Source: Thoreauomyces humboldtii (lineage: Eukaryota; Chytridiomycota; Chytridiomycetes; Spizellomycetales; Powellomycetaceae). From it: DNA of 10,684 nt. The stretch covers positions 1 to 10,684 of the forward strand of contig JADGJA010000788.1 of the NCBI GenBank assembly GCA_027596035.1, in the 5' to 3' direction. Position numbers and translations under genes: made by a program. Positions 1 to 10,684 of the stretch are shown here, piece by piece (the first letter of the stretch is position 1; each line of letters begins with the position of its first letter). The notes under the pieces are model-generated. The model was not told the DNA's origin, ran no database searches, and saw only the letters and a list, made by a program, of their open reading frames with translations.

Positions 1-472
1 CCTCCCCCCCATTTTTGGTTTTTGTATCTTATTTTTGATCTGCGGGGAAGGTGGAACCGGCCTCTTCTATAACGGTACAGCAACGGCCACCGGATATCAT
101 TTTTCAATGCACAGCTCCCGTTGCCCTGACTGTCCCTATCTGCGGAATCAAGTCACATCAGCGGAAGGCGGAAGCAGCAGAGGTGCTTCGGCCCGGAAAC
201 CTATGGAGGACTTGGCTCTTCGATGTCCGTGACAGCGCTCGCGATCGGCACTACCGACAGTTCGGGATTCGGTTCGGGTGCACCTCACCAGCGCTCCCCG
301 GACACCAAGCCGTTTTCTTTTTTTCTTGGTTTTTATTTCGGTGACGATATCTGTACAGGTACAGCATGGTCCATTGGTATAGGCGGTTCTCAATCTGTTA
401 ACACTTCTTCTGAACACCCTGTTCCCCCCAGCCTTTCCCTGACATCTCTTGCTTGAATATCACTCTCCTGCA
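1..472. other. 5' flank of the cell-wall protein gene, no gene seen
   Basis: No convincing gene. The open frames on both strands overlap one another, have no recognisable domain and look like chance frames of GC-rich DNA. There is a T-rich patch at about 316-340 and a short tandem of the hexamer GTACAG at about 353-364. The last 50 bases before the ATG at 473 are pyrimidine-rich, as is common for fungal transcription start regions. No clear TATA box lies at a sensible distance. Confidence 0.5.
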
Positions 473-1218
473 ATGTTCGCACCCGTCATCCTTCTTCCGT
501 CGCTTCTGCTCCTTCTGTCCTCAGCTGTCTTGCCAGTCCTGGCAGCAGAGGATGCAGACCCTTCAACCGCACAGCTCGTCTTCCCGACCACCCCGATCAC
601 TTCCACGGTGTGGGTGGCCGGCCAGCAGAGTCCCATCACCTGGACCCTTCCTGACGGATATCCAACCGCCGTCACCGACCTGACGATCGAGCTCGGAGTC
701 GGGCAGAACACGACGGTCGAGGGAAGCGGAATCTTCGTGTCCAAGGACGTCCCATACCCCGCAACCCTCACCTTGAACTACGTGGTTCCCGCCAACCTCA
801 CCGCTCGACAGTACTGTTTGATCTTCACCGGAAAGAGTGACTCGGGCACCGTCTACGGTCCCAACTACGCTACATGTAAGGTTTCCTGTCCATGGTTCTT
901 CCCATGCCATGCATGCTCCGAATCAATCGCATCTGACATCCTGACCTTGCAGGGTTTACCGTCAACGCCGCGGGTACCGCTGCAGCATCAATCCCGCCCG
1001 TCCCATCGAGCGTCTCCACGCCTGCTACCGTAGCCTCCGCAGCCACAGTCGCTGCTGCTGCCTCCACGCCGGTCGTAGCGCCCTCCTCCTCCTCCTCCTC
1101 CTCGGTCGCTGGTGCGGCTGCCACGCAGGCTGCCAGCGCCCATTCCGGTGCAGCAAGTCTTGCGGTTGGTCTTCTCGGGTTCCTGACCGCGTCGGCCCTC
1201 ATGGCTGTGACCTTGTAG
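473..1218 (+). CDS. GPI-anchored Ser/Ala-rich cell-wall protein, Kre9/Knh1-like
   Basis: Two exons, 473-875 and 953-1218, joined over a 77-nt intron (donor GTAAGG, acceptor TTGCAG, CTGAC branch-like sites at about 932 and 941), give 222 residues. Residues 1-24 form a signal peptide with a Leu-rich core. Residues about 33-138 resemble the Kre9/Knh1 N-terminal domain of fungal Ser/Thr-rich surface proteins: the beta-strand pattern with the SPITWT motif at 53-58 and a closing FTV strand just after the splice. N79 and N108 are N-glycosylation sequons. A Ser/Ala/Thr/Pro linker (about 145-200, with a run of seven serines) leads to a hydrophobic tail (about 202-222) after a small-residue site, the layout of a GPI-anchor signal. 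The product is therefore probably an outer-surface or wall protein; Kre9 relatives act in beta-1,6-glucan assembly, but that role is inferred. The ATG at 473 is preferred to an upstream in-frame TTG at 449 because only it puts the signal peptide at the N-terminus. Confidence 0.85.
1083..1103 (+). repeat. CTC/TCC trinucleotide microsatellite
   Basis: Six to seven tandem CTC/TCC units inside exon 2 of the cell-wall protein gene encode the poly-serine run of the linker. Unit-length changes stay in frame, so the linker length could vary between strains. Confidence 0.8.
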
Positions 1219-2016
1219 AGATTCTCGGTGGCACTTTCCAGGGAATACCTGTTGGATACCTGATGGCGTACTTTCCCCCATCAATTACTGCACATACACA
1301 CCCGTCCCCTTGACTAATAGCTGTTGCACTCCCTGATGCGTCAAGGGCGCATCCTGGTTCCTCTAGTGTTGCAGAAAATATATCAGATGCGTTTTGACGT
1401 ACAGTACGGTATGAATGCCGGAGTCAGCAGACTCAGCAGAGAGTGATTTTAGAGAAGGCGGGGGGGGGATTGTCAAACCCTGTGAAACTTCGAACGTCAA
1501 TGCGGCAACGAGCACACAGACCGTCCGTCGTGCCACGACAAGAAGCGGGCACAGAGGATACAGCACAGAGGGCCAACGCGATGAACGCGATGGAAGAAGC
1601 CTGTCGCTATGAAATGTGCGCGCTGGGCCGCGTAACCTCGTGTAACGCCGGTCTCTCTACTGTGTAAATCTCCAACAGAAGAAGCAGAGAATGCAAACAT
1701 GGATTGTTCTTGATGTTCGTGCGACCCATCGAAGCGGCAAGGCGTGACAAGCCCCAAAAGGAAAATCAATTTTTAGGCAGTGGCACGGTGTGCGCTTACG
1801 ACGGAGGATCCTTCGTTCGATCAGAACAAACGGAAATCCTTGCACATGTGGGGTGCGTCACCGTGCGTGGACCGTGGACGGGAAAAAAGACACATCTCGT
1901 CGGGAGGGGTAGGAGGATCAACTTTCCTCGAACGTGTCAGGGTCAACGACACACCTGCGCGGGGTCTCGATCAAGAATGGTGGACCGAGCTGGCAGCGGG
2001 ATAGGGAGCGTCGGTC
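1219..2016. other. Intergenic region, no gene recognised
   Basis: About 800 bases between two plus-strand genes. Open frames occur on both strands but overlap each other, lack domains, and none has a convincing start context or splice partner. A run of G at about 1459-1467 is the only low-complexity feature. The right part presumably holds the promoter of the ribonuclease gene. Confidence 0.5.
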
Positions 2017-2023
2017 TATAAAG
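2017..2023 (+). promoter_or_regulatory. TATA box of the ribonuclease gene
   Basis: TATAAAG lies 75 bases upstream of the ATG at 2092, leaving room for a short CA-rich 5' leader. A clean TATA box suggests a strongly inducible gene, which is common for secreted enzymes; inducibility is inference. Confidence 0.6.
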
Positions 2024-2091
2024 TCCGGGAGGGGACAGGCAACGCTTCCAGATCCCCACCCTTCTCCAACAGACATCCAAACACGACCATC

Positions 2092-2691
2092 ATGCACTCT
2101 TCCACCATCCTCGCTCTCCTGCTCTGCGCGACCGCCGCCACCGCCTCTCCCTTGTCCAGCCGTCAGGCTGAGTCCTGTGGCAAGGTCGAACTCACTGCGG
2201 ATGACATCCACAACGCTCTCGTCCAGGCTGCCTCGACCCCCATTACCAAATTCTCCAAGCGTTTCGAGGCATACCCCCACCAGTACGACAACCGTGAAGG
2301 CTTCCTGACCGGCACCTGCGCCGAGAAGTCGTCCCAGGGTCTTACCTACGAGTTCCCCATCATCCGCGGCGGAACCTGGCACACTGGCGACAAGCAGCCC
2401 GGATTGTACAGGGTCGTTTACTACCTCACCGGCTCCACCGCCACCTTGTGCGAGGCTGTCTACCACGGAAGCGGCGAGAACTTCTTGCTCTGCAAGCCCG
2501 AAGGAACCCCCTCCGGCGGCGATGCCACTGTCGCCCCCACCGAGACCGCCACCGAGACTGCCACCGAGACCGCGACTGCGACCGAGACCGCTACCGAGAC
2601 CGCCACTCAGACGGCCTCCGAGACGTCAACCGAGACTGCCACCGAGACCGAGACCACTGCTGAATCCACCGCTACCCCCACCGACTTTTAG
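2092..2691 (+). CDS. Secreted guanyl-specific ribonuclease, N1/T1 family
   Basis: Intronless, 199 residues. Residues 1-18 are a signal peptide ending in an Ala-rich cleavage site. The middle (about 27-135) matches the RNase T1/F1/U2 fold family: a YPHQY block carrying Y61 and H63, E87 in a YEFPI strand, R107 in an RVV strand, and H125 and F131 near the end. These correspond to T1 Tyr38, His40, Glu58, Arg77, His92 and Phe100, so the whole active site is present. C29-C134 should form the conserved terminal disulphide and C76-C120 a second one. Such enzymes cut single-stranded RNA after guanosine through a 2',3'-cyclic phosphate. From residue about 144 an acidic Thr/Glu/Ala repeat tail replaces the usual end of the family; there is no hydrophobic GPI tail. 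The start is fixed by the signal peptide and the good context (ACCATCATG). It could serve nutrition or act as an effector; the sequence does not say. It converges with the nitronate monooxygenase gene. Confidence 0.9.
   Translation: MHSSTILALLLCATAATASPLSSRQAESCGKVELTADDIHNALVQAASTPITKFSKRFEAYPHQYDNREGFLTGTCAEKSSQGLTYEFPIIRGGTWHTGDKQPGLYRVVYYLTGSTATLCEAVYHGSGENFLLCKPEGTPSGGDATVAPTETATETATETATATETATETATQTASETSTETATETETTAESTATPTDF
2539..2661 (+). repeat. Degenerate TETA-coding minisatellite
   Basis: Tandem 6/12-base units of the type ACCGAG-ACYGCN encode the Thr-Glu-Thr-Ala tail of the ribonuclease (residues about 150-190). Silent third-base differences between units and a few substitutions (Gln, Ser) show the array is not freshly expanded. 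The tail is acidic and dense in threonine, so O-mannosylation is plausible. Confidence 0.8.
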
Positions 2692-2909
2692 ATGGAAAGA
2701 GTAGAAATATGTGCCCATTGTATATAGAAATTAAGAGGCTCCTTAATAGACAGTTTATTCAGCTCATTTCTGTACGGCGGCGGAAGTCGAGCACCATTGA
2801 GCGAAGAAAATGAAAAAGTTCAGTACAAAGCGCAGGCCACTCTTGTACACCGTATGAGAACTTTGCTTTGCTTCATTCCAGCTGCAAATCGATCGCTTCA
2901 GACTATACT
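2692..2909. other. Shared 3' intergenic region between convergent genes
   Basis: This 218-base gap holds the 3' ends of the plus-strand ribonuclease gene and the minus-strand nitronate monooxygenase gene. It is A/T-richer than the genes just after 2700, as expected for 3' UTR and polyadenylation sequence, but no exact AATAAA is present on the plus strand. Confidence 0.5.
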
Positions 2910-4142
2910 TCAAAGGCGACTCTTTCCCACCGCAGCGCGAGCCGAAGCAGCAACCGCACCACCGATCTCCAAGCAGTCGAACGCTTCTTCCACAATCCTC
3001 TGCACGACCAGTGCAGCCGGCCAGACTCCCCGCACGAGCCCGACGCCTTGTCCCGCACCGACATGAGCAACGTCAAAATCACCCTCCTTCAGAGCGCGGT
3101 CGTACATCGGCTGCCATGCTTTCATCGCCTGCCTGTCCTCGACGTCCAACTCCTGCGTGACGTTGTTACAAAGCACGCGAAAGCCGTAGTGATCCGGCCA
3201 CGGCGTCCCTCGAAGATGGTCGAACACGCGCGTACGAGTGGTCGAGAGTCCCCCATCGACGGTGGACACGAGAAGCTGCTTTCCTCCTTCTGGCATAGCA
3301 GACTCGTGCGTGGCGCAAAAGCGTGTGCCGATGACGACGCCGCTGGATCCAAGCATCAGTGTCGCTGTGAGGAACATGAAGGACGTTCGGGAGTCAGGGC
3401 CATAGGAAAGCACGATACGCAATGGGCAGATGATGATGCATAGGTACGGCGCCTCGAAAGGGTACCTGCCAATTGCCGACCATCCGAGACTCCTCCGGCC
3501 GCGAGGACTGGAACATCGATTCGTTCCGCGATCTCAGGGAGCAGGCAGAACGTCGAAGCGTTCAGAGTGCGTCCATGACCGCCAGCCTCGCTCCCCTGAG
3601 GATCAATGTGAGAGCGTTAGAGGCCACCCCTTGTTGGTTGGTGACGCCTGGGGGTCTTTGCATGTCAGTCTCTGGGACACTGCACTGGGACTTGCCTGAG
3701 CGACAACGACATCGACCCCATAGAACTCTGCCGCTCGGATGGCTTCTTCGACCGTCTGGACCTGAACCATGACCTTGACGTCTGGTGCCTCTTCGCGCAC
3801 TCTCTCGAGATGCTTTCCGAAGTCCCCGAAAGAGAACCATATGGCGGCAGGGCGACAAGCCAGTGCGGCGCTGAGGAGTTCCGGATACTTGTCGAGCCAC
3901 CATGTGATGAATCCGATGCCAGCAGCCCCAGTCATGCCCTGCTGCTTCCGCAACTGGCTAACCTGGGCCCACTGCGTCGTGATCCAGTTTGGATCGGTTG
4001 CGTAGCCCACTCCCAGAAGCGCCAGACAGCCGGCGTTCGCCACCGCAGCAACGAGACGGGCGTGGGCGACGCCAGCCATAGGGGCCAGAACGATGGGATG
4101 GGTTATCGCAAACAGCGCCGTGAGTTCTGTGCTGATGGACAT
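2910..4142 (-). CDS. Nitronate monooxygenase (2-nitropropane dioxygenase family)
   Basis: Three exons on the minus strand, 4142-3696, 3595-3466 and 3364-2910, give 343 residues, a normal length for the family. The enzyme is an FMN-dependent TIM barrel that oxidises alkyl nitronates to carbonyl compounds and nitrite. Landmarks in order: PMAG at 21-24; GIGF at 75-78; SFG at 104-106; VVVAQ-GSEAGGHGR at 145-158 with the catalytic histidine H156; AAGG at 181-184 (phosphate binding); and GVVIGTRF at 201-208. Intron 1 (3596-3695, 100 nt) has a GC donor, AG|GCAAGT, with a CTAAC branch site and acceptor CTCAG; intron 2 (3365-3465, 101 nt) is GTACCC...CACAG, phase 1, with CTGAC. Both joins fall inside conserved motifs, which confirms them. 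The methionine at 4142 is chosen because the barrel begins directly after it; the open frame extends upstream without homology. Divergent neighbour: an acyltransferase gene starting at 4657. Likely role: detoxification of nitro compounds such as propionate-3-nitronate; this is family knowledge. Confidence 0.9.
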
Positions 4143-4656
4143 TTTGATCTTGGGGAAGGATTGGAAACTGAAGGAGAACCGGGCAAAAGGCGATGACTGC
4201 GTACCATGTACCGTGTACCGTACCGTACCCCAGGTACCGGTAAGCACACTTCGAACCGCAGGTATCTCTGGCGCTCGGGTTGCCGGAGGCTTTACCGGTT
4301 CTTCAGTTTTACCTGGGTGCCAGAAGCGTGGGACGATGACGCACGCGCCTCCCTCTCCTCCTGTAAGTCCTGTTGCCCCTGCTCTCTTCCTGTTTTCCTC
4401 GCCCCCTCTTTCTTTCCTTTTTCTTCTTCTTTCTTTTTGCTTTTGGCTTTCACACACCGCCGGCAGCACACATCCCCCGGTACGCTGCGTGCGCGCACTT
4501 TTACTCTTGCCGCTGCCCGATACGTACTTTACCTTACCCCCTTTGGTGTCCCACCTCGCCTCGTTAACCCTCCAGGTACCCCATTGCCCACATTCTTTCA
4601 AGCGACCCTTTGTTTCCCGTCCGCATAACACCTCGCATACAGCGACTCCCAAAAGG
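4143..4656. promoter_or_regulatory. Divergent promoter region with GTACC cluster
   Basis: This 514-base spacer separates the start codons of the nitronate monooxygenase (minus) and the acyltransferase (plus). Six GTACC pentamers begin at 4201, 4208, 4215, 4220, 4225 and 4234, the last forming a palindromic GGTACC; another GGTACC is at 4575-4580. A pyrimidine-rich tract runs about 4345-4445, typical of fungal core promoters lacking a TATA box. Open frames crossing the spacer have no recognisable domains. Shared regulation of the two genes is possible but unproven. Confidence 0.55.
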
Positions 4657-6304
4657 ATGCCTCCCCACGCCCCAGATGAAGTCACTCACCAGGTGCAGCC
4701 AGCTTCCGTTCCTTTGCCAAACAAGGAGCTGTTGACCGGTCGCGACAACATGTTCATTACCATCGAGGATGAGTTCCACGCGGTATGATTCCCATCAGGG
4801 AAGTCCAGATTCCATGCACCGTACCTGAAGCCTCTCGATTTTCTTTAGATGAACGTTTCCGGTCTTTACACGTTCCCTGAGACCATGACCGCTGACGAGT
4901 TGAAGACCCACATCGCCGCCTTTGCAGAGTCTTTCCCGAGATGTAGGCAACGGGTCGTTCAGCCAGATGGCCTCTTCAAAAGGCCGTACTGGGAGGCCCA
5001 CCAGCAGTACACGGTGGATAATCACTTCACTCGGATTCAACTCCCGGCTTCCGGTTCGGCTCAGGCTTTGATGGACCTTGTCGGACCTATGCACTCGGCG
5101 GAGCTCGACAAGTCAAAGCCGTTGTGGCATTGCTATTGGTTCGATGGCCTCGTGGACGAGAACGATAAGCCCAAACGAGTCATTCTTTTCACTGCCCATG
5201 TGAGTGTTTTAGGAACTCTGGGTCATAGGCTCATCGAACCCGGTCTGACCTTTCATGGTGTCTCAGCACGCCATTGCCGATGGACAAGGCTTTGTACGTC
5301 GCCTTCTGGCTTACGTGGCCTCGCAAGATCCCACCATCAAGGACGCGAGCTCCCTTCAGTACAGCGCCGGTCATCACGCCAAGGCCGCGGTGACCGCTGC
5401 GAACACCGGCGCCCCTGCCGATGCCTCCATGGTCGCCGCCCGCACCACTCAAGCACTCGCAGCGCGCATCCACGGTCTTGTTGTCCTTGCCATGGCGGTT
5501 CTTGCTTACCTTTACAACATGCTCCTCATCGCTCTTACGCCTCGCAACTCCTACACGACCCGCACAAACACGACCCAAAAGCAGGCGTCGTGGACCACAT
5601 CCCACATCGACCTTCAGACCATCAAAGACATCAAGAACCAGTATAAAGTGACTGTGAACGACGTCCTTACAGCTTGCGTTGGCGCGGCTCTTGGTGGACA
5701 CCTACCCGCGGACGTTCAGGACCCGCGGTTTTGGCTCCTCATCCCTACGTCCATGCGTCGACCAGACGACACATCGGCGAGCAACAAGAGCAGCGGTTAC
5801 ATCCTTCCCGTGCTCAACGGTGCTGGCGTGAATGTAGCAGAGCGTATTCACGCTGTGCACGGTGCCATGAAGTACTCCAAAGCCAGTCCAGAAGCGATCG
5901 TCAACTACTCGGTGCTTGACATCGTCTTCCGCTTTCCCAACCTTTGGAAACTTCCCTTTGCCGGCGTCTTCCTCATGGGGTCGCAGAAGCTGCATGGTGT
6001 CCTCACCAATGTCCCTGGACCCATGCAGACGATTCGATGGGGCTCTCACGCTATCGAAGGCATGTGTGCGTTCATTCCACAAGCTGGACCCAACTCCGTG
6101 TCATGCGCCGTCTACACCTACAACGGGGCAGTCACCCTTTCCGTCTTCATGGACCACATCCCTGGAGACGAGTCGTTCGGCGACAATGCCGCTCGCAACA
6201 TCGTCAAATCTTTCGAGACCGCCGTGCGGGCTGCGTCGCTCTACGCGCAGGCGAACGCCATCGAGTTCGGCACCACGACGGCGATTGCTAAGAAGATCCA
6301 GTAG
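4657..6304 (+). CDS. Wax ester synthase/diacylglycerol acyltransferase (WS/DGAT)-like O-acyltransferase
   Basis: Three exons, 4657-4782, 4849-5199 and 5267-6304, with introns of 66 nt (GTATGA...TTTAG) and 67 nt (GTGAGT...CTCAG), both phase 0, give 504 residues. Members of this family transfer the acyl group of acyl-CoA to long-chain alcohols or diacylglycerol to make wax esters or triacylglycerol. Landmarks: PLW at 133-135; the catalytic HHAIADG motif at 159-165, with the second exon ending on H159 and the third starting on H160; a hydrophobic segment at about 228-249, probably membrane-associated; VNDVLTA at 289-295; and NVPGP at 407-411. All family motifs are present, so an active enzyme is expected, probably at the endoplasmic reticulum or lipid droplet. 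The ATG at 4657 is the nearest in-frame methionine before the first conserved block. Actual substrate (wax ester, triacylglycerol or other ester) cannot be read from sequence. It is divergent from the nitronate monooxygenase gene. Confidence 0.92.
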
Positions 6305-6890
6305 TAGCGGACTCTTGTGAAGCTAGCCGGTGGCATTTGGAACCTGGACCTATTCCTGATCTATATCCTTTCATACTCATGGATTTTCCTTCGTAATCTT
6401 TTCCACATTTTTAATCTTAAATGATTTTATCTCATCTTCCCAGCACCACGGATAGCCACTGTCCTTCCAGCGTGCAAATCGCACATGTGAGAGGTCCCGA
6501 TATTGGCGTGCCGATGTGCTGTGCCACCCCAACCCGCTCCTCATCTTCAAGTTTTTAGTATGGTCATGGCAATGCCCACCGTACTTCCGTCTTGCCCCAA
6601 AAATTACCAAACATGGTTTGAGCAAGCATGATAATTAGCCATTATCAAATCTTGAATAGCGACCTTCCCAAGATTCCTCAAAACCAAAGTCCAAGTTAGC
6701 ATTCTTTGTTTGTTCGTTCTGGTGGTTTGAGTAGTTTGCATCTGCCTGAGAGCCACATTACCCTGGACGATCAAGTGGCTACCTGCGTGTTCTTCTGATG
6801 TCTTTCGAGCAAAGTTAACCGTGCCCTCCACTTTTGTGAAAGTTTCGGCCACCTTCAACCCTCCGGGTAGGTGCCGTAAATCCCCCCTCA
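6305..6890. other. 3' flank and AT-richer intergenic DNA, no gene recognised
   Basis: After the acyltransferase stop the first 100 bases are AT-rich and likely hold the 3' UTR and polyadenylation site. The remainder is clearly poorer in GC than the genes to the left. A minus-strand frame at 6604-6891 shows no domain and abuts the copia remnant, so it is more likely old transposon-derived or random sequence. The edge at about 6890 is where similarity between the two copia 3'-end copies stops. Confidence 0.45.
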
Positions 6891-7198
6891 CGAAGGTGGG
6901 AGCTATCTAAACTAGTCTAGTGGAGAACTGTGCCTCCTGGAGTGAGGACTTGTACGTTCTCGCCTGCTTCACTCAACAGTCCCCTCAAGTGAGAGTTGTC
7001 GCTGGTGAAGTGGACCTCCATATCCTTGCTTGTATCGAGACGCCGGATACCCATTGTGTCCTTGTGCTTTTTGAAAGCGGGCCTTGGTAAAGGCTTCGTC
7101 ATGGTGTCGGCGGCCATGTCCGCGGTAGCCTTGTACGTGAGGACGATGGTTCCGTCGGAAACCTTCTCTCCAAAGAAGTGGTGTCGCACGCCGATATG
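6891..7198. repeat. Direct repeat copy 1 (copia pol 3' end)
   Basis: Matches 9168-9478 in the same orientation over about 310 bases. By eye there are about 21 differences, roughly 93% identity, many of them C/T or G/A transitions. The similarity starts at a shared CGAA(A)GGTGGG and ends at CCGATATG, where copy 2 changes to foreign sequence. Confidence 0.9.
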
Positions 7199-7287
7199 CT
7201 TGGTCTGTGCGTGATGGACTGGGGTGTTCGCCAATGCGATCTGTGAGCAGGACGGCGCAGCTGTGGGAACTGATAGTTGAATGTATA
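6917..7287 (-). pseudogene. Ty1/copia pol 3' end, RNase H C-terminal part, copy 1
   Basis: The minus-strand translation carries the classic copia RNase H ending: an IALANTPVHHAQTKHIGVRHHF block, then a TYKATADMAADTMTKPLP block, and a stop at 6917-6919. The upstream part of the domain (the VALSSTEAEY region expected in this family) is missing. The frame just before the IALANT block looks shifted by one base: the bases just upstream read as VLLTD in the neighbouring frame, as in the DNQSAIALA region of intact elements. It continues, after an intervening LTR, the reverse transcriptase remnant at 7437-8190. It is therefore a dead fragment and not an expressed host gene. Confidence 0.85.
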
Positions 7288-7436
7288 TGTTGGTAAAGCT
7301 TACTCGACTAAAGGGGAGAGAGCCGAGGGGAAAGGAGACTATCTAAGGAGTGGCTGTGCTCCTGCTATGTGTGTCCGGGTACGCCGGACACAGGCGCAGG
7401 TGAGACAACGGGTAGGATGACCTACCCCCGCCAACA
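7288..7436 (-). mobile_element. Short LTR (149 bp) inserted in the copia RNase H region
   Basis: Read on the minus strand the segment starts TGTTGGCGGGG and ends TTTACCAACA, giving perfect TGTTGG/CCAACA termini with the TG...CA ends of an LTR. It interrupts the copia frame directly after the RNase H motif SDADW and DKDTRR. An inverted partial relative is at 8521-8639, about 88% identical by eye. Flanking bases (AGACG before, TATAC after) do not form a 5-bp target duplication, so a simple solo-LTR insertion is not proven; a deletion of the RNase H centre accompanies it. Confidence 0.6.
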
Positions 7437-8190
7437 CGTCTTGTGTCCTTGTCCTCTGTCCAATCCGCATCCGAATAGGCTGCGATGCGAATATCGGCGT
7501 CGTCAAGTCCGTCCAGGAAATCCGGTTGAAGTACCAGTGCGTGGTCCATTATGCCGATGAGGTATCGAATAACCCCCGTCGCGGCGCGGGTGTGCCTCGG
7601 ACGGCCGTGCGCAGTATCGGAATAGAGTTGAGACTGGGTATGCAATGCACGCCCTTGTGACACAAACTCCATGCATGATGGAACCAATCATTTGCTGGTG
7701 CAGCTTGATGTCAGCCGGTGTGTTTTCCGCGAGCTTCTTGTCATGCCCCTCCATACTGGCAATGGTGTCGTTGTCCGGAAGAGCGATGAGGCGTGTGGTA
7801 GAAGGCATTGGGATGAGATTAGGCTTTGCTTCTGAGAGTCCAAAGCGCTTTGCTACCTTCTTAATGTACAGATCCTGCGAGAGAGCGATAGTACTTGATC
7901 TTCTGATCAGATCGATTTTCATGCCGAAAAAGAATTCCAAGATCCCGCAGTCCTTCATCTTGAACCGTTTTGCGAAGTCCTTCCAAATTGCGTGAAGCGT
8001 TTTGGCGTCTTTTGAGGCCATGATGATGTCATCGACGTAGACTCCGATGAGTTCAATTCCGTTGGACAAATTGCGGTAGAATACGCATGAGTCCCCTAGG
8101 CAGGGTGCGAATCCAATGGAAACGGGGTACTTGGTGAGGAGCTTGCTTCAGAGTCGCGCGGCTTGTTTGAGGCCATACATGTTGAGCAGA
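7437..8190 (-). pseudogene. Ty1/copia reverse transcriptase and start of RNase H, decayed
   Basis: On the minus strand the order is: a MYGLKQAARL block of the RVT_2 reverse transcriptase family, then a TGA stop at 8150-8148 where the family has tryptophan, then the catalytic YVDD motif at 8039-8028. The connecting region (EFFFGMKI, then LYIKKVAKRFG) follows, then the MIGSIMHG and ARPSEAHP blocks. A frameshift at about 7590 moves the reading to another frame, which continues with GVIRYLIG and AYSDADWTEDKDTRR of RNase H before being cut by an LTR at 7436. Gag, protease and integrase parts are not found next to it. The stop, the frameshift and the cut show it is inactive. Confidence 0.9.
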
Positions 8191-8193
8191 CCC
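8180..8193. repeat. 14-bp direct repeat, left copy
   Basis: TGTTGAGCAGACCC here recurs exactly at 8642-8655. The pair brackets a 448-base block that is unrelated to the reverse transcriptase on its left. It may be a target-site duplication or a microhomology at a recombination joint. Confidence 0.5.
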
Positions 8194-8520
8194 AGTTGTG
8201 GAGGTGCTCGACACTTGTGATAATGCTATGTAGCTTACTTGATGATATGCACTGTTTCCTCAGCGGGGACAGACATTCTGTGGCTGTGCTAGTACATCGA
8301 GTAGCACATCTGGCTAATGGGATGTGTCATCCCGGAGACCTCCTGTGTGACTCATACCTTCAGGTGACTCGCTGTCACTCACAGCACCTTGACAGGTCCC
8401 GTCCAGGTGTGCCGGGTGAATATGACGGGAGTCTTCCCTTTACCACACTCCTCTCAGGCTTGGTATGCCAGGGCATGGCAAGCCTGTTGCCAAAGAGGGA
8501 AGACAAGGCGTCTCGGAAGC
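8194..8520. other. Unidentified insert sequence, possibly internal end of another retroelement
   Basis: No recognised protein on either strand. It interrupts the minus-strand copia reverse transcriptase. Near its right end an imperfect hairpin (8431-8504) and a purine-rich stretch (about 8492-8508) come just before the LTR-like start at 8521. A purine tract directly upstream of a TG end is what the 3' end of a plus-strand LTR element would look like. That reading is tentative. Confidence 0.35.
8431..8504. repeat. Nested inverted repeat (imperfect hairpin)
   Basis: Outer arms GTCTTCCCT (8431-8439) and AGGGAAGAC (8496-8504) are perfect complements. Inner arms CAGGCTTG (8455-8462) and CAAGCCTG (8479-8486) are also perfect, with a further ATGCC/GGCAT pairing at the tip. 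The arms are separated by unequal unpaired bases. Confidence 0.75.
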
Positions 8521-8639
8521 TGTTGGCGGGGATAGGTCATTTTACCCACTGTTTCACCTGCGCCTCTGTCTGGCGTACCCAGACACACATAGCAGGAGCA
8601 CAGCCACTCCTCAGATAGTGTTCTTTCCCCTCAGTTCTC
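8521..8639 (+). mobile_element. Partial LTR, inverted relative of the 7288-7436 LTR
   Basis: Begins TGTTGGCGGGG and follows the minus-strand copy for about 119 bases with about 14 differences, most of them transitions. It then loses similarity before the CCAACA end is reached, so the right terminus is missing or diverged. Orientation is opposite to the copy at 7288-7436, giving an inverted pair about 1.1 kb apart. Confidence 0.65.
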
Positions 8640-8742
8640 TTTGTTGAGCAGACCCGTTGAGGGGAGAGCTCGGCACTGTTGACGGACACATTGTTTGAGC
8701 ACCGATCGTAGTCTCCGCAGAGATGGTGTGGGTGCCTGACAT
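8617..8742 (-). pseudogene. Possible copia gag N-terminus
   Basis: A minus-strand ATG at 8742 opens about 41 codons (MSGTHTISAETT at the start, Ser/Thr-rich) that end at a TGA soon after entering the inverted LTR fragment. It follows an LTR-like, TATA-containing stretch, the place where gag would begin, and its composition resembles copia gag starts. No conserved gag domain is present in so short a piece, so this is a weak call. Confidence 0.3.
8642..8655. repeat. 14-bp direct repeat, right copy
   Basis: Exact copy of 8180-8193 at the other end of the 8194-8641 block. It lies inside the possible gag start on the minus strand. Confidence 0.5.
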
Positions 8743-9167
8743 TCTTGCTAACAATGTTGCTGGGAAGCCTCAGATACTGATGAAGCCACGCCTTGGCGGT
8801 GACGGCAGCTTGACGGGTTCCGGGAGGAGAGGACAGCGTCCTTGGTTGGCAGGTGTTGGCTGCCGGATTGGTGCCCCGGAAGGATGACGAGGCTGGAAAA
8901 TGATAACCTTACAATGTAGTGAGAGTACAGTGTAAGCTCTGCCGTGTTATTGTGAAAGTCCTTGAAGAAAAGAGGGAGGGGAATGCCGATCAGGGTGCTT
9001 TATATCCTGGAAGTCGTCCCTCCCCAGAGGTCTCGGTTCGGCCGCTGGCAGATCCCTGGCTTGGCTGGTACTGGCTGCGTATGGCGCAGCCATCCATTTG
9101 TCATACCGGGAACAACCAGAGCTTGTCCGAGTAGAAACAGAAAGAAGAGAAAAAGAAGAAAGAGTGA
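8743..9167 (-). mobile_element. LTR-like / 5' leader stretch of a copia element
   Basis: On the minus strand this lies between a pol 3' end (9478-9168) and a possible gag start (8742), the position of a shared LTR and leader. It has TATAAA at 9004-8999 followed by a pyrimidine-rich stretch, and an upstream perfect hairpin GGCTGCG-TATGG-CGCAGCC (9073-9091). A purine run on the plus strand covers about 9134-9164. I could not fix the TG...CA limits or a standard primer-binding site, and the sequence does not recur after copy 1 of the pol end. Confidence 0.4.
8999..9004 (-). promoter_or_regulatory. TATA box in LTR-like stretch
   Basis: TATAAA on the minus strand, about 260 bases upstream of the possible gag ATG at 8742, fits a U3 promoter driving the copia element. 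It is supported only by its position and motif. Confidence 0.4.
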
Positions 9168-9478
9168 CGAAAGGTGGGAACTATCTAAACTAGGTCTAGT
9201 GGAGAACTGCGCCTCCTGAAGTAGGGCCTTGTACGTTCTCGCCTGTTTCACTCAACTGTCCCCTCAAGCGAGAGTTGTCGCTGGTGAAGTGGACCTCCAT
9301 ATCCTTGCTTGTATCGAGACGCCAGATACCCATTGTGTCCTTGTGCTTTTTGAAAGCGGGCCTTGAGAGAAGGCTTCGTCATGATGTTGGCGGTCATATC
9401 CGCGGTAGCCTTGTACGTGAAGACGATGGTTCCCTCGGAAACCTTCTCTCCAAAGAAGTGGTGTCGCACGCCGATATG
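9168..9478 (-). pseudogene. Ty1/copia pol 3' end, RNase H C-terminal part, copy 2
   Basis: Minus-strand reading enters at GVRHHFFGEKVSEGT and passes TYKATADMTANIMTKP, then shifts frame relative to copy 1 at about 9360-9372 (GGTAAAGG in copy 1 against GAGAGAAGG here). It therefore lacks the normal C-terminus. The upstream side is cut in mid-domain at 9478/9479 by unrelated fibre-like sequence. It is the second half of the direct repeat with 6891-7198. Confidence 0.85.
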
Positions 9479-10605
9479 TTGATCAACTGGAAACCGGCAT
9501 TTGTGTCACTTGTTGGTGATTTTACTCCAATGGAAAGCGACTTGTTCATACCTATTCCACCTGCAACTTGAAGAGCCCGTGTTATAGGATAAAATGCATT
9601 GGTTGTGTTCAGCAATTGTAACGCTCCAGAAACTGTTGATAAACCATTCACAGTCAACCCTCCGTTTAGCAATACATTTCCACTAGCAACCTGAAGCGCA
9701 TAAGGATTAGTTATCGTGGTATTTGTACCAGCAATTGGAGCACCAAAGATGTAAACAGTAGCAGCCGCTGTCCTAACTACACCTGTGTTCGTCGCAGTCA
9801 ATGTTGGAGCATTGATTGAATTGTATTGAAGACTTGTCGCGTTTGTTCCAGATGCAGCCGTTGTCGAGTCCAAAAGAGTGCTTGTTGCTTGATTTATATA
9901 TGTTCCAACAAAGAGCGATTTACCAACTGCCAAGCCACCTGCCACCTGCATTGCTCCTGATGTTGCAGAGACGAGTCTGTTGTCAAAAGAATTTGCATAG
10001 AAGGAATAGCTGATGCTACAATCAAATTCGCACTTGTCGCGCTTGTAAAGTACATATTCCCACTGTATGGTGCCGAAGTGGACACGCATCCGATTCCGAT
10101 GAATCCAACTGCACCTCCTGTAGAATTTGCAAACTGAATACTCGAATAACCATTTGCTGACAAGTTTTGAATACGAACTGCATCAGTTGCGGATGTTGTC
10201 TGGAATACATGCTGACCAGTTGAAGATGCTCCAACGAACAGACTTTTTCCAATTGCTACCCCTCCCGAGACTTGAAGCGCACCTGTTGTTACAGAAGATG
10301 AGTCTGTCGTCTGCGGGATATTGACACTGCCTCCTTGAGTGACCAACTGGATAGGTTTGGACCCCGTGGCTAAAATTGTCATGGCATCTTGATTGTATCC
10401 TGCCAAGCCACTTCCATCAAGTCCTAGATAGCCGCCAATACCGCTCGTCGTGTTCTTAAAGTATAGGGAAGTCTACGAAGTACCGCTTCCAATAATCTGA
10501 CTAATAATCCCAGTTCCAGTCAGAGTCAACGATGTCAAACCTTGCGTAGGAGAGAGTGAAATGTTAACTCCTGAAACGCTAAAAGCAGATGAGAATGTTA
10601 GATTG
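9479..10605 (-). pseudogene. Virus-like repeated fibre/tail protein fragment, decayed
   Basis: The minus strand encodes a Gly/Ser/Thr/Asn-rich, beta-structured protein. A block of the type GALQVSGGVAIGKSLFVG occurs at 10283-10230 and again at 9957-9904 and 9579-9526 with substitutions; a looser copy (YALQVASGN...GGLTVNG) lies at about 9706-9643. Between them are GYLGLDGSGLAGYNQDA and TGSKPIQLVTQGG segments. Such repeats are known to me from large Nucleocytoviricota genomes and from phage tail fibres, not from fungal proteins; this attribution is from memory of the pattern and not from a search. A TAG stop (10475-10473) interrupts the frame and a probable one-base deletion at 9969/9968 shifts it. 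The DNA is AT-richer (42-45% GC in two lines counted) than the fungal genes. The left end is sharp at 9478/9479; the right end is uncertain, about 10605. It has no start or stop of its own, so only an internal part is present. Confidence 0.6.
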
Positions 10606-10684
10606 TTCTGTGAGCATGGCTGGGCCGCCAGGACACCGACATGGGACTATGATGAGGGAAGTGAAGCTTAGCTGTATTCAGGGA
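10606..10684. other. Right flank of the fibre-like segment, origin unclear
   Basis: The last 80 bases appear GC-richer again around 10617-10645 and no longer give the Gly/Ser/Thr/Asn-rich fibre pattern on the minus strand, though the frame stays open for a while. They may be host or transposon sequence beyond the insertion, but the stretch is too short to identify. Confidence 0.3.

Follow-up and report, generated by a model that had tools for sequence, protein, structure and literature searches.

Polinton-like virus elements measure about 14-40 kb and often carry terminal inverted repeats, and, to our knowledge, double-stranded DNA (dsDNA) viruses of fungi are little known. Passages of Bellas and Sommaruga 2021 (PMC7805220) describe one Polinton-like virus in Spizellomyces punctatus, as well as capsid, ATPase, and helicase genes in Allomyces, recall an earlier Polinton in Glomus without a capsid gene, report integrated elements with RVE integrases or tyrosine recombinases, and propose infection of fungi. 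The fibres of such viruses are attached to the pentons and mediate binding to the host cell according to passages of PMC12220804, in which those of cryptophyte Polinton-like viruses are long and modular, with the avian-adenovirus fibre domain PF06536 and phage-like parts, and in which retrotransposons disrupting fibre genes are also reported. Here, we analyzed a DNA stretch of 10,684 nucleotides (the window, contig C757 of a 20.67-Mb assembly of 823 contigs) from Thoreauomyces humboldtii, a member of Chytridiomycota (Powellomycetaceae, Spizellomycetales) and not the basidiomycete assumed in a previous reading of these letters (hereafter the sequence-only reading). With a probability of about 0.92, the minus strand near its right end holds a decayed fibre gene fragment of an endogenous Polinton-like virus. 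Direct support comes from the sequence family, the gene neighbourhood, the predicted capsid fold, low substitution ratios, chytrid relatives, and a shaft-head mosaic.

Besides the three blocks that match the strict pattern A[LM]QVxGGxxxxKSLxxG (Table 1), the minus strand of 9479-10605 holds a degenerate fourth one, which starts at 9699. None of 3000 random sequences of matching trinucleotide make-up contained the strict block, and it is absent from positions 1-9478 of the window in all six frames. The spaced blocks, along with the LGLDGSGLAG and TGSKPIQLVT segments that the sequence-only reading had also named, are therefore real. By-eye comparison indicated that both segments are retained, with changes, in the fibre copies of contigs C122 and C663, and that LGLDGSGLAG is also retained in those of C216 and C622. 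The same reading had noted a composition different from that of the host genes and had proposed a tetranucleotide profile as a check, and both measures agree with it: guanine-cytosine (GC) content is 44.3% in the fragment versus 56.4% in the host part (positions 1-6892), and the tetranucleotide distance between the two is 0.576, larger than for any of 29 host pieces of equal length, taken with overlap (maximum 0.379). The distance between the fragment and a viral stretch of C663 is 0.303.

At the DNA level, the fragment is 90.5-91% identical to the copies on C216 and C622, and it spans approximately residues 1-287 of the 526-aa open frame of C216 plus about 86 residues upstream. This single open frame is matched by the fragment in two different frames, with one TAG inside. 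With both ends lost, a changed frame, and a stop, the window copy no longer works and is, judging from its sequence, dead. A sharp edge had been noticed earlier; the left edge is indeed sharp and lies at 9478/9479, exactly at the end of a copia-type piece, and the right edge lies near 10611, where a dispersed repeat sets in at about 10607-10609. The fragment has thus lost one end to retrotransposon sequence and the opposite end to another repeat.

Table 1. Features of the window (positions on the forward strand; the assignment to a virus is the probable one given in the text)
Feature	Position	Strand	Basis or remark
Broken, truncated fibre (spike) gene fragment, probably of an endogenous Polinton-like virus	9479..10611	-	DNA similarity, two-frame protein matches, one TAG
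Fibre repeat block 1 (ALQVSGG..KSL)	10230..10280	-	strict pattern
Fibre repeat block 2 (AMQVAGG..KSL)	9904..9954	-	strict pattern
Fibre repeat block 3 (ALQVAGG..KSL)	9526..9576	-	strict pattern
LGLDGSGLAG segment	10398..10427	-	pattern position
TGSKPIQLVT segment	10338..10367	-	pattern position
Second copia-type copy, 93.5% like 6893-7198	9171..9478	-	repeat map; abuts the fibre fragment
Copia-type retrotransposon remains	6893..8069	-	repeat map; RVT_2 match within
Dispersed repeat truncating the fibre fragment at right	10606..10684	.	7 genome places including the window

DNA and protein searches located fibre sequence on 11 contigs of the assembly, namely the window (C757), C622, C216, C730, C653, C663, C122, C198, C712, C565, and C221, the last with a weak match (E 4.5e-4). 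A query of the protein database with the C216 fibre frame gave 10 hits, led by a 730-aa protein (P0001), which lies on a contig of 46 kb filed as Sphagnum tenellum and is 41% identical over 61% of the frame. Like the C216 fibre, P0001 contains ALQVAGG blocks; unlike it, P0001 has an S74 chaperone domain at its C-terminal end. It matches 16 PHROG families, mainly of tail fibres and mainly via the S74 end, and the C216 frame gave no PHROG family match. As a separate observation, P0001 is a phage-like fibre protein in a moss assembly, and its contig may represent an unrecognised virus or a moss microbe. In the PDB sequence search, the fibre gave a single weak hit judged to be due to chance, and the proximal fibre open reading frame (ORF) gave nothing useful. 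The proximal fibre ORF of C712 matched PF06536 under the cut-off (E 5.5e-4), and F5/8C-like domains, also under the cut-off, were detected in the fibres of C663 and C712.

The relatives of the fragment adjoin capsid, packaging, and integrase genes, which, together with the S74 domain and tail-fibre PHROGs of P0001, bears out the viral fibre origin suggested by the sequence-only reading. On C712, the fibre ORFs are followed by an ORF of 570 aa (X), the capsid protein (365 aa), and a penton-like ORF, and then by an ATPase piece and an integrase; on C663, the ATPase comes first, then pieces of the penton-like, capsid, and X genes, and finally the fibre. A proximal fibre part, an ATPase, a penton-like ORF, a capsid, and X are found on both C601 and C597, followed on C601 by an integrase, and the ALQV shaft was not seen within the stretches of these two contigs that were examined. 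Profile searches of the contigs placed the packaging ATPase (PF04665) above the cut-off on C597, C712, C601, C602, and C663. Integrases in which both the PF00665 and Chromo matches exceed the cut-off are present on C565 (3.9e-8 and 4.8e-10, respectively) and C602 (5.1e-11 and 6.4e-6, respectively). The penton-like ORF is conserved near the capsid gene on C565, C597, C601, C602, C663, and C712 and has no strong Pfam match; its label is our assumption, based on gene order in Polinton-like viruses. In addition, PF19263, which we take to be a helicase family, was matched on C597 at about 6 kb from the capsid gene. Further PF19263 matches lie in long open frames on C109, C501, and C681, the last of which also has an integrase match.

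The genes of this virus family encode a double jelly-roll capsid protein and a penton-like one, a packaging ATPase of the A32 type, an integrase of the retroviral type that bears a chromodomain, and, on one capsid contig, a PF19263-type helicase. The family has inserted repeatedly into the chytrid genome, presumably by means of its integrase. DNA polymerase B (PF03175) was found only on C718 (9036-10509, in two pieces), with no match to 20 viral queries within the 3.8 kb examined, and this polymerase perhaps belongs to a linear plasmid or another mobile element. The Adenovirus/Ulp1-type protease PF02902 was matched only on C807 and C403, not on the capsid contigs, although the contigs are incomplete and no control genome matched this profile.

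For the capsid relative on C565, the predicted model (predicted local distance difference test score, pLDDT, 85.5) is a double jelly-roll, which matches the capsids of PBCV-1, Sputnik, mavirus, and PRD1 (Foldseek, VIA-align). A first capsid search yielded five proteins: one of Thoreauomyces itself, one of Powellomyces hirtus on a 323-kb contig, and three more on contigs of 18.8-24.9 kb. The 365-aa capsid protein of C712 is 100% identical to a deposited T. humboldtii protein. The capsid profile search gave 15 hits, and all 11 of those with organism names are from chytrids, namely Gaertneriomyces, Geranomyces variabilis, Phlyctochytrium arcticum, and P. hirtus; three of the hits lie on contigs of 0.92-1.73 Mb. 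Considering both searches, the capsid family spans five named chytrid genera, and no S. punctatus protein was among the capsid hits. The capsid tree (19 rows) contains two fully supported clades, with Thoreauomyces in both; the partial proteins P0025 and P0026 and the fragments of C601, C602, C408, C812, and C663 were excluded from the tree, and P0020 and P0026 from the capsid alignment (A3).

The best PDB matches of the capsid model are Nucleocytoviricota capsids, and an insertion of a giant virus of this group into the fungus is the strongest competing source of the fragment, albeit a very unlikely one. Giant-virus genes are known in the early fungi Gonapodya, Allomyces, and Rhizophagus according to passages of PMC5294986, and the best fibre hit lies on the 46-kb contig filed as S. 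tenellum. However, the capsid fold is common to double jelly-roll viruses generally, including virophages and PRD1, the linked genes are compact and include a retroviral-type integrase with chromodomain, and three capsid relatives occupy the short contigs mentioned above. The nucleocytoplasmic large DNA virus capsid (PF04451) and late transcription factor (PF04947) had no match in the genome; because the control genomes were equally silent, giant-virus genes could still reside elsewhere in it. Of the "giant-virus- or phage-like fibre" of the sequence-only reading, the viral fibre is retained, and the giant virus gives way to a small Polinton-like virus, as the compact linked set with its retroviral-type integrase indicates.

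The fibre gene of this Polinton-like virus would encode a long capsid-borne spike, probably trimeric, that binds a receptor on the cell. The spike may be built from an adenovirus-like proximal ORF, shaft modules with the ALQVxGG-KSL repeats, and, at the C-terminal end, a head, of which at least two divergent types occur; some fibres have putative discoidin-type (F5/8C) domains. Between C216 and C730, the shaft is 86% identical over 162 residues and the head 32% over 119 residues; shaft and head identities to C216 are 74% and 30% for C653 and 64% and 29% for C198. The last 110 residues of C730 share 86-87% identity with C198 and C653, and the head of C216 shares 95% with C622 and 63% with C122. 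The two head types are distantly related: when the heads alone were scored, C730 and C653 did better than every one of 500 shuffles, which C198 did not. Such an abrupt jump in identity between shaft and head suggests exchange of heads, and hence of the receptor, by recombination; fast change of the heads alone, without exchange, is the alternative.

The ratio of nonsynonymous to synonymous substitution rates (dN/dS), calculated by simple NG86 counts on short pieces, was 0.02-0.35 in all 10 chosen comparisons of copies, 0.18-0.26 in three comparisons with the window piece, and 0.02-0.12 in three comparisons of capsid and penton-like genes. Capsid copies are strongly constrained (two comparisons). 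Because of these low ratios, most of the differences between copies seem to date from a time when the genes were still functional, which fits virus replication before or between insertions. Low dN/dS between copies and the open frames of some of them would also suit a family of surface or spore proteins of the host, whether or not it came from a virus, retained for fungal use, but we consider this still less probable than a giant virus, since the fibre genes sit within capsid gene clusters, the window copy is broken, and the even lower dN/dS of capsid and penton-like genes is what virus replication predicts. Contamination, or an assembly error that fused a fungal contig with DNA from a phage or a metagenome, is equally improbable: edges are sharp, the assembly has 823 contigs, and the window junction could be a mis-join, but the family occurs on a further ten contigs (weakly on one of them), and several of these include long stretches whose GC resembles that of the host. 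In three other chytrid species, moreover, the contigs with capsid relatives measure 0.32-1.73 Mb.

Several points weigh against assigning the fragment to a Polinton-like virus. No other viral gene was found on the window contig among the protein and profile matches made, and C216 reads N over its first 1407 bases, which lie upstream of the fibre. The fibre and capsid proteins have no strong Pfam or PHROGs family (weak matches only, for the fibre frames), and the structure model of the fibre head (pLDDT 55) is too poor for a structure search. PF04665 also matches 2 of 14 control genomes (one bacterium and one archaeon), the ATPase piece on C565 falls just under its cut-off, as does the rve match on C712, and none of the examined contigs carries a complete element, terminal repeats not having been sought. 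Moreover, scoring in the protein searches was confined to the nearly 8000 candidates with the most shared words, and capsid relatives in other hosts may therefore be missed. A search of viral and metagenomic proteins had been proposed by the sequence-only reading: the best protein hit, P0001, matches tail-fibre PHROGs, and IMG/VR scans with capsid, fibre, and integrase queries returned no relative, which is weak evidence of absence because the scan needs short conserved words. Since IMG/VR gave no relative, it is the fold and the gene content that tie these elements to the Polinton-like viruses described so far.

In the remainder of the window, the copia-type remains include an RVT_2 reverse transcriptase match at 7503-8069 (PF07727, E 2.7e-16). 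A short repeat at 7242-7436 is 97% alike to positions 8110-8304 of C663, where it overlaps a viral fibre-region ORF, and positions 7317-7436 and 8521-8640 form an inverted pair (88%) flanking the reverse transcriptase piece; the short repeat at 7242-7436/8521-8640 is possibly a small DNA transposon. The dispersed repeat at the right flank also has a copy on C501. Host genes include a secreted-looking ribonuclease with a long Thr/Glu-rich repeat tail (2092-2691; PF00545, E 7.1e-10), a nitronate monooxygenase, and a wax synthase/DGAT-type enzyme.

A decayed fibre gene of this kind would imply past infection. Capture of viral DNA by fungi was described as little documented in the sequence-only reading; passages of PMC7805220 and PMC5294986 already document integrated DNA viruses in early-diverging fungi. 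Within the open-licence literature, the chytrid elements described here are additional Polinton-like viruses, in more chytrid genera than the passages of PMC7805220 name. Judging from parts of their texts, fungi were outside the scope of a protist survey from 2023 (PMC10120064), and polinton-like ATPases were discarded in a giant-virus survey from 2017 that did cover fungi (PMC5294986); both would have overlooked elements of this type. It is conceivable, though doubtful at present, that chytrids carry their own dsDNA virus family with two deep capsid lineages, still moving between fungal hosts as infectious particles, and that swaps of fibre heads record repeated receptor change. Because the capsid family occurs in five chytrid genera, with constrained capsids and mosaic-looking fibres, infection of fungi by Polinton-like viruses is testable in cultured chytrids.

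Compared with known systems, the elements resemble Polintons/Mavericks proper in their retroviral-type integrase with chromodomain, A32-type ATPase, and double jelly-roll capsid, and differ from them in that no linked protein-primed polymerase or protease was seen here and in the PF19263 helicase on the capsid contig C597. With the cryptophyte fibres, as described in passages of PMC12220804, they share long modular fibres, PF06536 (here under the cut-off), and disruption by retrotransposons. S74, common in those fibres, did not turn up in the scanned fibre ORFs of Thoreauomyces (a scan that excluded the C-terminal pieces of C730, C653, and C198), which have F5/8C-like domains and unassigned heads instead. 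The S. punctatus group is likewise of the Polinton-like kind and integrated in a chytrid, one that belongs to the same order; by the description in passages of PMC7805220, it comprises one fungal element, whereas two deep capsid lineages and several copies are present here.
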